A stretch of 64,000 nucleotides of DNA from Mycolicibacter hiberniae (GTDB lineage Bacteria > Actinomycetota > Actinomycetes > Mycobacteriales > Mycobacteriaceae): NCBI RefSeq assembly GCF_010729485.1, contig NZ_AP022609.1:620001-684000 (forward strand), in the 5' to 3' direction. The notes under the pieces are model-generated. The model worked only from the letters and a program-made list of their open reading frames with translations, searched no databases and was not told the origin of the DNA. Positions 2,286 through 6,143 of this stretch are shown here, piece after piece; position 1 is the first letter of the stretch; each line of letters opens with the position of its first letter. The position numbers and the translations under genes were made by a program.

Positions 2286-5200
2286 GTGGACGCCCGGGGA
2301 GCGAAGGATACTCGCAACGGGCGGCAACGCCCTCGCCGCCTCACCGGAACGGTTCCCAGACGGGTTTTCGCCGCGACATCGCTGGTAGGGGCCTTATTGG
2401 CCCTCGGGATGTCGCCGGTGTCCACGGCGCCCGCGGCGGCTGACCTCGACGATATTCTGGCGCCGCTCTGGGACGCGATCAGCACCGCGCAGGTAGAGCC
2501 GGATCTCTTCGCGGCATTCGGCGTGGAGCCGCCCTTCGCCTCGCAGGCCGATGACCTCGGCTGGGAGGCCCTCTACGACGGCCTGAGCGACTACGTGGAC
2601 AGCAACGGCTGGTTGCTCGACCTGATCAACGCGCCGTTCGTCACGATGTTCGGGCGGACGTTGATCGGCGACGGGATCGACTTCTACACCGGCACCAATG
2701 ATTCCTGGTTCGGCTGGGTGCCCGGTATCGGCGATCTCGGTGACGGCGGGTTCTTGTTCGGCGATGGCGGCACCGGCGCCGACGGGACGGCCGATCACCT
2801 GGCGGGCTACGCCGGCGGCTTCGCCGGCATGTGGGGCAACGGCGGCGACGGCGGCGCCGGATTCGACGGGGGAACCGGGGGCGCCGGCGGCGACGGCGGC
2901 TGGCTGGCCGGTAACGGCGGGGCCGGTGGTGTCGGCGGTGCGGGCGCTGACGGTGGTGACGGCGGTGCCGCCAATTGGCTGGCCGGCGACGGCGGGGCCG
3001 GTGGCGCCGGTGGCGCGGGATTCGCCGCCGGCTGGACCGGTGAAGCCGGCGGGGACGGCGGCAACGGCGGCGCCGGTGGCCGCGCCGGTCTTTTCTTCGG
3101 CAGTGGTGGCGCCGGCGGGAACGGCGGGGCGGGCGGCGCGGGATCTGCGGGCGCCGACGGCGCGACACCGGGCGCCGCGGGCGAGCACGGCGGTGCCGGT
3201 GGCGCCGGCGGCGACGGCGGTATCGGTGGTAGCGGCGCCAGCGCGGGCGCGCACGGTGCGGGCGGTGCCGGTGGTGCCGGCGGCAACGGTGGTCGGGGCG
3301 CGGCCGGCGCCGCGGGAGCCGACGGCACGGCCTCGCATGTGGATGGATTGGCCGGGCAGGCCGGTGGGGCCGGGGGCAATGCCGGCGCCGGCGGCGCAGG
3401 GGGCGCCTCGGGAGCGGGCACCGTCGCGGCCAGCGGTCTGCACGGCGCCGCGGGCGTCGGTGGTGACGGCGGCGCCGGTGGGGCGGGCTTTCACGGTCTG
3501 AACGGCACGGCAGAGCGCATCGACGGCACCAACGGGGGCGCCGGGGGCGCCGGCGGCGCCGGGGGCGCCGGCGGCGCCGGGGGTGCCGGGGGAGTCGAGG
3601 TCGGCGGCGGCCGGGCGCTGCAGGGCGACGGCGGCAACGGGGGCGCCGGTGGCTCGGGTGGCGCTGGTTACAACGGTCGGGACGGCGCTGCGGCGACGAC
3701 ACCGGGTGCGGCCGGCGGCACCGGCGAGAACGGCGGCGCGGGCGGTCATGGCGGCGACGGCGGGCAGGGCGGCGCGGGCCGAGTCGACGGAGTTCAGGGT
3801 GTCGGCGGCGCTGGTGGCGACGGGGGCTCGGGAGGCCGCGGTGGCGCCGGGGCCAGCGGAGTGGACGGCACCGCCGGGCGTATCGACGGCCAGCTCGGCG
3901 GTAGCGGTGGTGCCGGCGGCAACGGCGGGGTCGCGGGTAACGGGGGCAGTGGGTCGCTGGGCGGTTCCGGGGGCACCGGAGGTAGCGCCGGAAGTGGCGG
4001 TGCCGGCGGCGCCGGCGGAAACGGTTCCGGTGGCGGCAACGCCGAAGCGGCGGGCAGCGGAGGCGACGGGGGAGTCGGCGGTCAGGCCGGCGGTCGGGGC
4101 GCCGGTGGCGTGGGCGGCGCCAACGGCGACGGCATCACCCAGGCGGCCGACGGTTCCGGGGGTGCCGCTGCTGCGTCGGGTAACGGCGGTGCGGGCGGCG
4201 ACGGCGGGCGCGGTGAGGTGTCGGCCGGCGCAGCGTTCGGTCAATACGGCGGCACCGGGGGCACCGGCGGCCATGGTGGTGTCGCCAACGGCGGGGCGGC
4301 CGGAAGCGGTGGCGCCGGCGGTGCCGGTGGTGCCGGGTCTGCGATCGGCCTGGGTGCGGTCGGCGGTGGTGGAGGCACCGGTGGCGCCGGCGGAACCGCG
4401 GACGGGACGCGAGCCGGACAGGGCGGTGGCGGTGGCGGCGGTGGGGGCATGGCCTCCGTCACCGGTGCCGGTGCAGCCGCCGACACGACGGTGACCGGCG
4501 GCCGCGGCGGCGATGGTGGTGCCGGCAGCGCCGACACCGCGGGCGAGACCGGCCGAACCGGAGGCCAGGCCACTGCCGTGATCGACGGAAGTTCCTCGGG
4601 CGTGACGGTCACCGGCGGGAGCGCCTCGGCCCGCGCCGACGGCGCCGACGCGGCACTGAACGTCGGCGCCGGCAGCAGCGTCGAGCACAGCAGCGTCACC
4701 GCAGGCACGGTGGGTGCCGGCGGCAGCGGCGGTTCGGCATCCCTGGCGGCCACCAACGGCGGAAGCATCGTGGGCAGCACAGTCACCGGCGGCAACGGTG
4801 ACGACCGCACCGGCAACGGCGGCAACGCCTCGATCTCCGTCGACGGGACGGGCAGCAGTGTCGTCGACAGCGTGGTGATCGGCGGCGGCGGGGCTCAGGG
4901 CGCCGACGGCGGTGCGGGCGGCGCCGGTGGTTTGGCGGAGGTGAACGCCTGGGAAGGCGGCAGGGTCACCGACAGCGTCGTCATCGGCGGTTCCGGTGGA
5001 GTGGGTGCCGACGGAGGTCTCGGCGGTGCCGGCGGTCGCGCTTCGGTCAGCGCCGGCCCCGGCGGCGTCGCCGCGGTGGAGGCCCGGGGCGGCCTCGGCG
5101 GTGCGGCCGACGGCGCCGGCAGCGTCGGTGGGGCCGGCGGCACGGGGGTGGTCGGCAGCGGAATCCTCGGTGAGGGCGGCACGATCACCGGTACCGCAAC

Positions 5201-6143
5201 CGGCGGTGTCGGCGGAGCGGCGGACGGGGGCGGGCGCGGCGGCGTCGGCGGCAGCGGCGGGCTCTACGCCTACCTGGGCGGCCACGCGGAGAACAACGAC
5301 GCCACCGGCGGTGCGGGCGGCGCTGGTCTGGCCGGCGGCGTCGGAGGAGCGGGCGGCTACGGCGACGTCTATTCCACCGGCGACGTCTATGACGGCACCG
5401 TCACCGGTGGCGCCGGCGGCGCCGGCATCTCCGGTGGTATCGGAGGTGCCGGTGGGTACAGCTTCCTGCAGGCCGGTGTCGAGCCCGGTGACACCGCCGG
5501 CGTCACCGGTACCAGCACCGGCGGAGCCGGGGGCATCGGTGGCGCCGGCGGAGTAGGCGGGACCGGCGGGTTAGCCATGATCTTCGCCGGCACCGTCTCC
5601 CAGGTGAGCGGCACCGTCATCGGTGGAGCGGCCGGAAACGCCCTCGACGGCGGGTCCGGCGGGGCCGGCGGCTACGCAGCCATCGCGACCTTGGAGGACA
5701 ACGTCGTCGTCAACGGGACGGCGATCGGGGGCGACGGCGGAGCGGCCGGCGCAGCGGGAATCGGCGGCGCGGGTGGCGCTGGTGGTGACGGCGGCATCAG
5801 CAGGATCGATCTGGTCACCGACGCCGGCCAGATGATCACCGACGGCACGTCGGTCGGCGGCGCCGGAGGAAACGGCGGAGACGGCGGTGCGGGTGCCGAC
5901 GGCGGTGACGGCGGTGACGGCGGCGCGGCCTTCACCACCGGTGGCAGCGACAGCATCGGCGGAGGCGGAGGAAACGGCGGAAACGGCGGTGCCGTAGGGC
6001 CCAACGGCGACGGCCACGGTGGCCGGGGCGGAAACGGCGGCACCGGCTACGGCGCCGTCGGCGGCAACGGCCAACACGGCGGCAACGGCCAGGCCGACGG
6101 CACCCCCGGTGCCGACGGTGCCCCCGGAGCCGACACCCCGTAG
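2286..6143 (+). CDS. PGRS-type Gly-rich surface protein without a PE domain
   Basis: 1285 residues. An Arg-rich N-terminus leads to a hydrophobic segment (about 29-46) ending near STAPAAA, so a Sec signal peptide with cleavage near residue 52 is likely. Residues 53-120 are a non-repetitive helical-looking leader. Then comes LINAPFVTMFGRTLIGDG (about 113-130), very close to the linker (NAPT...LLGRPLIGDG) that joins PE and PGRS domains in PE_PGRS proteins. From about residue 149 the chain is GGxGG/NGG/DGG repeats. Residues about 760-1180 add Thr/Val/Ser-rich turns (VTVTGGSASA, VTDSVVIGG) between Gly runs, suggestive of a beta-helix. No PE domain is present. The start is leaderless (TAAGCT 7 bases before GTG). 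Probably exported to the cell envelope; function unknown. Confidence 0.85.
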   Translation: MDARGAKDTRNGRQRPRRLTGTVPRRVFAATSLVGALLALGMSPVSTAPAAADLDDILAPLWDAISTAQVEPDLFAAFGVEPPFASQADDLGWEALYDGLSDYVDSNGWLLDLINAPFVTMFGRTLIGDGIDFYTGTNDSWFGWVPGIGDLGDGGFLFGDGGTGADGTADHLAGYAGGFAGMWGNGGDGGAGFDGGTGGAGGDGGWLAGNGGAGGVGGAGADGGDGGAANWLAGDGGAGGAGGAGFAAGWTGEAGGDGGNGGAGGRAGLFFGSGGAGGNGGAGGAGSAGADGATPGAAGEHGGAGGAGGDGGIGGSGASAGAHGAGGAGGAGGNGGRGAAGAAGADGTASHVDGLAGQAGGAGGNAGAGGAGGASGAGTVAASGLHGAAGVGGDGGAGGAGFHGLNGTAERIDGTNGGAGGAGGAGGAGGAGGAGGVEVGGGRALQGDGGNGGAGGSGGAGYNGRDGAAATTPGAAGGTGENGGAGGHGGDGGQGGAGRVDGVQGVGGAGGDGGSGGRGGAGASGVDGTAGRIDGQLGGSGGAGGNGGVAGNGGSGSLGGSGGTGGSAGSGGAGGAGGNGSGGGNAEAAGSGGDGGVGGQAGGRGAGGVGGANGDGITQAADGSGGAAAASGNGGAGGDGGRGEVSAGAAFGQYGGTGGTGGHGGVANGGAAGSGGAGGAGGAGSAIGLGAVGGGGGTGGAGGTADGTRAGQGGGGGGGGGMASVTGAGAAADTTVTGGRGGDGGAGSADTAGETGRTGGQATAVIDGSSSGVTVTGGSASARADGADAALNVGAGSSVEHSSVTAGTVGAGGSGGSASLAATNGGSIVGSTVTGGNGDDRTGNGGNASISVDGTGSSVVDSVVIGGGGAQGADGGAGGAGGLAEVNAWEGGRVTDSVVIGGSGGVGADGGLGGAGGRASVSAGPGGVAAVEARGGLGGAADGAGSVGGAGGTGVVGSGILGEGGTITGTATGGVGGAADGGGRGGVGGSGGLYAYLGGHAENNDATGGAGGAGLAGGVGGAGGYGDVYSTGDVYDGTVTGGAGGAGISGGIGGAGGYSFLQAGVEPGDTAGVTGTSTGGAGGIGGAGGVGGTGGLAMIFAGTVSQVSGTVIGGAAGNALDGGSGGAGGYAAIATLEDNVVVNGTAIGGDGGAAGAAGIGGAGGAGGDGGISRIDLVTDAGQMITDGTSVGGAGGNGGDGGAGADGGDGGDGGAAFTTGGSDSIGGGGGNGGNGGAVGPNGDGHGGRGGNGGTGYGAVGGNGQHGGNGQADGTPGADGAPGADTP

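Follow-up and report, generated by a model that had tools for sequence, protein, structure and literature searches.

A candidate family of PGRS proteins with a predicted signal peptide in place of the PE domain in Mycolicibacter hiberniae

We analyzed a 64,000-nucleotide stretch of the Mycolicibacter hiberniae genome (GCF_010729485.1, contig NZ_AP022609.1, positions 620,001 to 684,000), hereafter the window, and a gene in it that encodes a long glycine-rich protein with PGRS repeats. Judged by its sequence, the gene probably belongs to a large family of PGRS surface proteins with a cleavable secretion signal instead of a PE domain. This leader-bearing family, here named SP-PGRS, is apparently undescribed so far. 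An original prediction, made from the letters of the window alone, had proposed that the protein is either a Sec-exported counterpart of PE_PGRS proteins or an ancestral form that preceded fusion with PE.

Results

Absence of a PE domain and presence of a PE_PGRS-type linker

A genome-wide search for PE domains (PF00934) gave 12 matches in the M. hiberniae genome (4,396,654 bases, one contig), none of them near the gene (genome position 622286). With a local PE hidden Markov model (HMM), the window protein scored 3.1 bits (E 0.42), and seven PE controls scored 85-109 bits. The upstream gene phoH2 stops 106 bases before the GTG start, a gap too short for a PE domain (~90 codons), indicating that there is no room for one upstream. 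A PE domain in a corrected upstream frame, which the original prediction had named as one of two findings that would speak against it, was looked for and not found. Residues 1-140 also contained no Y-x-x-x-D/E, the export motif of PE_PGRS proteins as defined in the accessible parts of PMC6819658 and PMC12209268; Tyr 97, 103 and 134 have S, N and N at +4. The predicted absence of both a PE domain and an ESX motif was therefore upheld.

The linker was scored with an HMM built from ten PE_PGRS linkers of 23 residues each, with no Gly repeat. The window linker (GRTLI) reached 39.1 bits, and the best of 1880 shuffled decoys reached 9.3 bits. In a repeat run, with the proteins read to 220 residues, the window linker scored 39.2 bits and the best of 1800 decoys 7.1 bits. 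These results bore out the proposed similarity to PE_PGRS linkers. The 1285-residue translation likewise opened with the expected Arg-rich, hydrophobic leader ending A-A-A↓D (↓, predicted cleavage site), which reads ...RRVFAATSLVGALLALGMSPVSTAPAAA↓DLDD (APAAA↓DLDD at its end). Its net charge ahead of the hydrophobic stretch was +7, the Kyte-Doolittle peak was 2.09, and rule-based inspection found a basic n-region, a hydrophobic h-region and an A-x-A site.

Against the M. engbaekii orthologue, the ratio of nonsynonymous to synonymous substitution rates (dN/dS) was 0.34 over 1276 codons, with 0.22 in residues 166-720 and 0.41 in residues 721-1285, and substitutions by codon position numbered 145/133/313. 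This pattern indicates that the frame is under purifying selection and is a real gene.

The SP-PGRS family in the M. hiberniae genome

At least 18 proteins of this genome had one build, consisting of a basic n-region, a hydrophobic stretch, A-x-A↓D/E, a variable helical part, the linker and PGRS. Together they comprised 22,775 amino acids, or 1.55% of the genome. All 16 PGRS matches of the genome fell in these 18 genes, and none coincided with the 12 PE matches; eight of the PE frames were read, and none had a PGRS tail. The PE HMM found nothing in the 18 members beyond the E 0.42 of the window protein. A-x-A↓D/E followed the hydrophobic stretch in 18/18 members, with A50, A52 and D53 invariant, and [AV]-x-A-[DE] followed the hydrophobic peak in all 94 leaders compared (18 own and 76 from named species). 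RRx with two hydrophobic residues occurred in 14 of these 94 leaders, including the RRVFA of the window protein, which alone had RRxF. With its leader among these twin-arginine types, the window protein may also be a Tat substrate.

Several members carried an enzyme behind PGRS. Six ended in a GH5 hydrolase with a GH5 C-terminal domain, and one ended in DUF2599. Another member, L059, ended in the PE-PGRS aspartic peptidase domain PF20729 (E 1.5e-79; PDB 4ehc, E 1.7e-69), with DTG at 884 and DSG at 1046, and demonstrated the arrangement leader, PGRS and protease (L and G labels denote loci and genomes of this study). All six GH5-type genes, among them L055 (2292452-2297417 of G000:C1), L056 (388017-392437), L058 and L060, consist of a leader, a short PGRS and the GH5 hydrolase, and four of the six stand as two tandem pairs. 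The one GH5 member tested was endoglycoceramidase-like; it scored 213 bits with NF051847, whose cut-off of 700 it did not reach. NCBIfam at E 0.01 gave no model for L057, L063, L068, L122 or L152.

PF20729 was found in 19 of the 20 genomes searched. An open frame could be read in 18 of the 30 loci fetched, and the N-terminus in 10; two more were re-fetched. PE, linker, PGRS and protease were combined in L209, L210, L212, L239 and L240. In L215, L218, L219, L222, L226 and L227 (frames of 391-428 amino acids), PF20729 followed a leader and a short segment that lacked PGRS, and in L223 it apparently followed a leader and a spacer. By their coordinates, the leader and PF20729 genes without PGRS often stand in tandem pairs. 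Long PF20729 frames in related genomes (1139-1374 amino acids) looked like L059, their N-termini lying outside the fetched loci. One further locus, L241 of genome G029, combined PE, the same helical cap, the linker, a short PGRS and another domain. The same protease cargo behind both PE-PGRS and leader-PGRS indicates that the module and its cargo pair with either export signal. According to the accessible part of PMC6819658, the PecA protease of M. marinum removes the PE domain of PE_PGRS proteins, or part of it. The retention of PF20729 behind a leader in a genome where no PE_PGRS was found suggests that it may have other substrates.

Occurrence across genomes and relation to ESX-5

A scan of named species, with nine N-termini of this family as queries, retained 80 of 103 loci, of which 68 came from records labelled Mycolicibacter and 6 from Mycobacterium sp. 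UM_WGJ. The closest was M. engbaekii (87%). A leader and no PE domain were found in 76 of the 80 frames, 75 with A-x-A-[DE] before the linker and one (L088) with V in place of the first A. The other four, from M. simulans, M. szulgai, M. persicum and M. gastri, had PE. One leader form came from M. helveticum (L123) and one from a metagenome-assembled genome (L150).

At E 1e-10 the family profile matched 125 of 248 genomes of the genus (GTDB sense), a count that includes many PE_PGRS genomes because these match through linker and PGRS. From these matches we hand-picked 13 closer relatives and 22 other carriers. In the 22 carriers a leader-like stretch, often with a Pro/Ala/Ser-rich spacer, was followed by the cap, the linker and PGRS. 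Only one of 37 frames from other genomes had a PE domain (L176, from the PE-rich genome G029). The 200 genomes of the order that were searched, from 60 genera, included 16 with matches, and these fell in 2 genera. The second genus (G317, same family) had two PGRS genes, L203 with a clear leader and L204 with an unclear N-terminus. With 11-14 candidates scored per genome, the family counts of the genus and order scans are floors. No match came from a tblastn search of 72,556 plasmid records with residues 1-179, and a plasmid origin was rejected.

EccD5 served as the marker for ESX-5. The M. hiberniae genome encodes EccD5 (PDB 7b9f, E 3e-197) among five EccD loci, four of which are clear; the fifth EccD-like gene is divergent and was matched in two pieces (G000:C1 2824803-2825915). 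With the own EccD5 as query, an orthologue was found in 13/13 closer relatives (63-97%; in two pieces in G153) and at 61-63% in four PE-rich controls. Of the 22 other carriers, two (G030, G212) had EccD5 at 59%, four had a relative at 43-46%, and the remaining 16 had matches of at most 33% or none at E 1e-20. The same query gave no EccD5 match in G317. With 20 of the 22 tested carriers lacking an EccD5 orthologue, these results indicate that PE-less PGRS genes occur both with and without ESX-5.

Structure predictions

In the AlphaFold model of the window protein, the leader is followed by a stretch with low-confidence helices, by two better-supported helices and, after the linker, by a polyglycine-II bundle. 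The helical segment that had been expected ahead of the linker was thus found, in a narrower form, with residues 83-106 and 108-122 as its better-supported part. The expected Val/Thr enrichment of the C-terminal half also stood: Val+Thr made up 13-25% in 8 of 10 blocks of 60 residues from residue 721 on, and 3-8% in residues 181-720. The accompanying beta-helix was predicted at middling confidence, and glycine-rich stretches persisted between its predicted strands. The repeat at 4452-5957, of ~34-38 residues, comprises two strands and Gly-rich stretches, and similar units were seen by eye in L205-L207 of other genomes. The structure alignment comprised the window protein and 40 of 70 usable named loci, and the invariance of linker residues in these 41 rows arises by construction, since the loci were fetched with the pattern FGRxLIG. 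Fold look-ups of the window models turned up no PDB entry of a PGRS domain, which is not proof that none exists. A PDB sequence search with the window protein returned collagens and one linker-bearing construct and nothing else, and NCBIfam gave no model for it at E 1.

Age of the locus and order of the two forms

M. engbaekii carries the gene at the same locus. Relative to its orthologue, the window protein is without a 65-residue PGRS stretch, and there are internal indels of 1, 3 and 6 residues. In 11 of 13 related genomes phoH2 and the deacetylase gene are adjacent with no such gene between them; the gene was present in G249, which judged by identity is probably M. engbaekii or a close neighbor of it, and G124 had no phoH2 within 1500 bases upstream. 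These results indicate that the window copy is a recent arrival and not an ancestral relic. The suggestion of an ancestral form before PE fusion is not borne out at this locus, and only the spread and tree of the family as a whole fit it.

We built an unrooted tree of 75 rows and 108 columns from 80 prepared rows. Own members 1364316, 3921234 and 3937259 and PE_L018 were out because no linker was found by pattern, own member 3946537 was left out by choice, and 19 of the 76 named leader-bearing loci were included. The ten PE rows stood on the side of the clade of GRxLIG-type leader forms and required two changes (one possible). Each side of the tree held leader-bearing rows, and the G317 pair was split between different leader-bearing clades. 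The tree and the genome spread favor PE having joined an older module, an order that is plausible but unproven given the few columns, the open forks and the missing root.

Features of the locus and its surroundings

The features of the gene and its immediate neighbors are listed in Table 1. Downstream of the deacetylase gene lie genes for a DUF222 protein (7040-8599) and an MpaB/Lcp-type oxygenase (8645-9619). Shortly 5' of the GTG is an inverted repeat, TTACCTAA-N9-TTAGGTAA, at 2251-2275, whose right half and following bases are kept in M. engbaekii and whose left half is not. An IdeR/DtxR iron box upstream was rejected: scored against an IdeR/DtxR consensus, the best matches upstream of 17 of the 18 own members did not exceed those in shuffled sequences, and only L060 (15/19 consensus positions) beat its 200 shuffles. 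The same scan ruled out the inverted repeat as an iron box.

Table 1. Positions of the SP-PGRS gene, its parts and the adjacent genes in the window.
Feature	Position	Strand	Remarks
Whole SP-PGRS gene	2286..6143	+	GTG start, 1285 amino acids, no internal stop
Leader, signal-peptide-like, residues 1-52	2286..2441	+	A50-A51-A52↓D53; contains RRVFA
Two predicted helices (residues 83-106, 108-122), "cap" common to other members	2532..2651	+	AlphaFold model
GRPLI-type linker NAPFVTMFGRTLIGDG, residues 115-130	2628..2675	+	PE_PGRS linker HMM, 39.1 / 39.2 bits
Pfam PGRS match, residues 149-207	2730..2906	+	PF21526, 31.1 bits, cut-off 27
Predicted polyglycine-II bundle, residues 158-288	2757..3149	+	
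Extended PGRS stretch, rich in Gly/Ala and poor in hydrophobic residues	3150..4445	+	Composition profile
Predicted beta-helix-like region, Gly-rich stretches between strands	4452..5957	+	Spacing of 34-38 residues in mid-region
C-terminal tail ending GGNGQHGGNGQADGTPGADGAPGADTP, almost identical in M. engbaekii	6027..6140	+	Orthologue comparison
Upstream neighbor phoH2 (PIN + PhoH helicase)	848..2179	+	NF053827, 798.9 bits
Downstream neighbor, polysaccharide deacetylase	6173..7021	+	PF01522

Discussion

In this study, the reading of the window protein as an exported counterpart of PE_PGRS proteins was well supported by its lack of PE, its leader, its linker, its PF21526 match, its predicted fold and the cargo of its family. 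That part of the original prediction stood, with Tat as a possible alternative to its choice of Sec for the window protein, given RRVFA. We propose that the leader would carry the chain across the inner membrane by a general export route (Sec in most family members, Sec or Tat here) and that signal peptidase would cut after A52. The GRTLIG linker, which follows the two helices, may lock the start of the predicted polyglycine-II sandwich, as has been published for the GRPLI of PE_PGRS33. Close to the N-terminal end of this sandwich, hydrophobic turns (GFLFG, GMWG, WLAG, LFFG) could anchor the protein in the outer mycomembrane leaflet, and the C-terminal half would then be displayed, here as a beta-helix with polyglycine segments that likely forms an adhesin-like or spacer surface. 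Other members would display an enzyme instead, either the aspartic protease or the GH5 hydrolase. As to transport, this mechanism covers the crossing of the inner membrane.

Several results weigh against this interpretation. The cleavage after A52 is predicted by a sequence rule, and the insertion into the mycomembrane is taken over from the published model of PE_PGRS "sails". Leaders were less uniform in other genomes, where the chosen stretch lacked an A-x-A-like site in 3 of 37 frames (L204, L208 and L177, the last at a contig end) and some picks, including L188 and L205, were doubtful. Only six of the 18 own members (the window protein, L063, L066, L067, L060 and L068) beat the best decoy on the linker HMM, and the other 12 retain IGDG/IGNG or similar and the following turns without the GR part. 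All 76 named leader-bearing loci scored above the decoys, again by construction of the FGRxLIG fetch. Pfam PGRS missed own members L068 and 3946537, and L066 and L067 fell below its cut-off as whole proteins. The C-terminal beta-helix model had a predicted local distance difference test score (pLDDT) of 65.2, from two sequences, and Foldseek gave no matches to it at E 0.001. A protein database search with residues 1-150 had 1482 candidates and none at E 0.001; this null is uninformative, since whole-genome searches recovered many relatives.

We considered three other explanations. That the resemblance arose by chance or convergence, with an unrelated Gly-rich secreted protein bearing a look-alike linker, is very improbable. 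Gly-rich repeats do match by composition, as the collagens illustrate, and 12 of the 18 own members do not exceed the decoys on the linker HMM. However, this HMM is free of the Gly repeat, and the window protein still reached 39 bits, with the best decoys at 9.3 and 7.1. PE_PGRS and SP-PGRS proteins also have common turns after the linker, the helical cap is present in L176 and L241 too, and the aspartic protease cargo is common to both. A leader that stays uncleaved and anchors the protein in the inner membrane, with PGRS facing the periplasm or cell wall, is a rather unlikely arrangement. A basic n-region and a hydrophobic stretch would equally make a signal anchor, but the A-x-A↓D/E of all 18 own members, with its invariant A50, A52 and D53, and the [AV]-x-A-[DE] of 94/94 leaders argue for cleavage.

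The third explanation reverses the order of events: PE_PGRS came first, and the leader form arose when, in the Mycolicibacter line or earlier, PE was lost and a signal peptide acquired. PE_PGRS could have existed in this genome, which has ESX-5 and 12 PE genes, and the window locus is young and the tree unrooted with open forks. We nevertheless consider this order doubtful, since 20 of the 22 tested carriers of PE-less PGRS genes have no EccD5 orthologue, such genes also occur in a second genus (G317), leader rows lay on both sides of the tree with only two changes needed for the ten PE rows, and the single PE frame among 37 from other genomes (L176) came from a PE-rich genome. The signal-peptide reading is preferred for the window gene. 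On the origin of the module we are evenly divided: PGRS may be an older module for surface display in mycobacteria whose first export signal was a plain signal peptide, with PE replacing the leader later. If so, it was PE that placed the module, together with its enzyme cargo, under ESX-5, the known dependence of PGRS proteins on ESX-5 is secondary, and Mycolicibacter and other environmental mycobacteria still run the original export system of PGRS.

In the accessible parts of the published sources, PGRS expansion was dated after the M. avium split (PMC1660551), PE_PGRS proteins were described as confined to pathogenic mycobacteria (PMC10216338) and as dependent on ESX-5 (PMC7028111), and Table 1 of PMC12209268 listed M. 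engbaekii, M. terrae and M. smegmatis with a pe_pgrs count of 0. Our result is in line with the lack of PE_PGRS in this group, where PGRS itself is abundant: with 0 for M. engbaekii and M. terrae versus at least 18 genes in M. hiberniae, counts that require PE can give zero despite many PGRS genes. The genome comparisons suggest that surface display of PGRS may not depend on ESX-5. PGRS function is thereby open to study without PE in environmental species, and the contributions of PE and PGRS are separable, since both forms are found with the same protease cargo.

Among the papers listed in our search of the open-access literature, none described PGRS proteins with a signal peptide, judged by title or abstract start. 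The closest was PMC11939664, whose accessible part described, for M. smegmatis and other Mycolicibacterium with few PE proteins, PGRS proteins with a questionable N-terminus, and treated the PE identity and localization of its two M. smegmatis PGRS proteins as unsettled. Neither "signal peptide" nor "signal sequence" nor "terrae" was found in that paper. The question it raises, the N-terminus and destination of the M. smegmatis PGRS proteins, becomes directly testable.

Among proteins of known fold, the polyglycine-II antifreeze proteins (7jjv, 2pne) are springtail proteins, and no family relation of the window protein to them is claimed. The autotransporter adhesins TibA (4q1q) and antigen 43 (7ko9) had 11-16% identity to the middling-confidence model, with a root-mean-square deviation above 5, and unlike them the window protein showed no autotransporter barrel. 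The closest known system is that of the PE_PGRS proteins (PE_PGRS33, PE_PGRS35/PecA, PE_PGRS16). Like these, the window protein has a GRPLI-type linker, PF21526 and a predicted polyglycine-II sandwich, and SP-PGRS is a multigene family with enzyme cargo that includes the same aspartic protease domain (PF20729, PDB 4ehc). Unlike these, the window protein has neither PE nor an N-terminal Y-x-x-x-D/E, it has a signal-peptide-like leader and a predicted beta-helix-like C-terminal half, and SP-PGRS genes occur in genomes both with and without an EccD5 orthologue.

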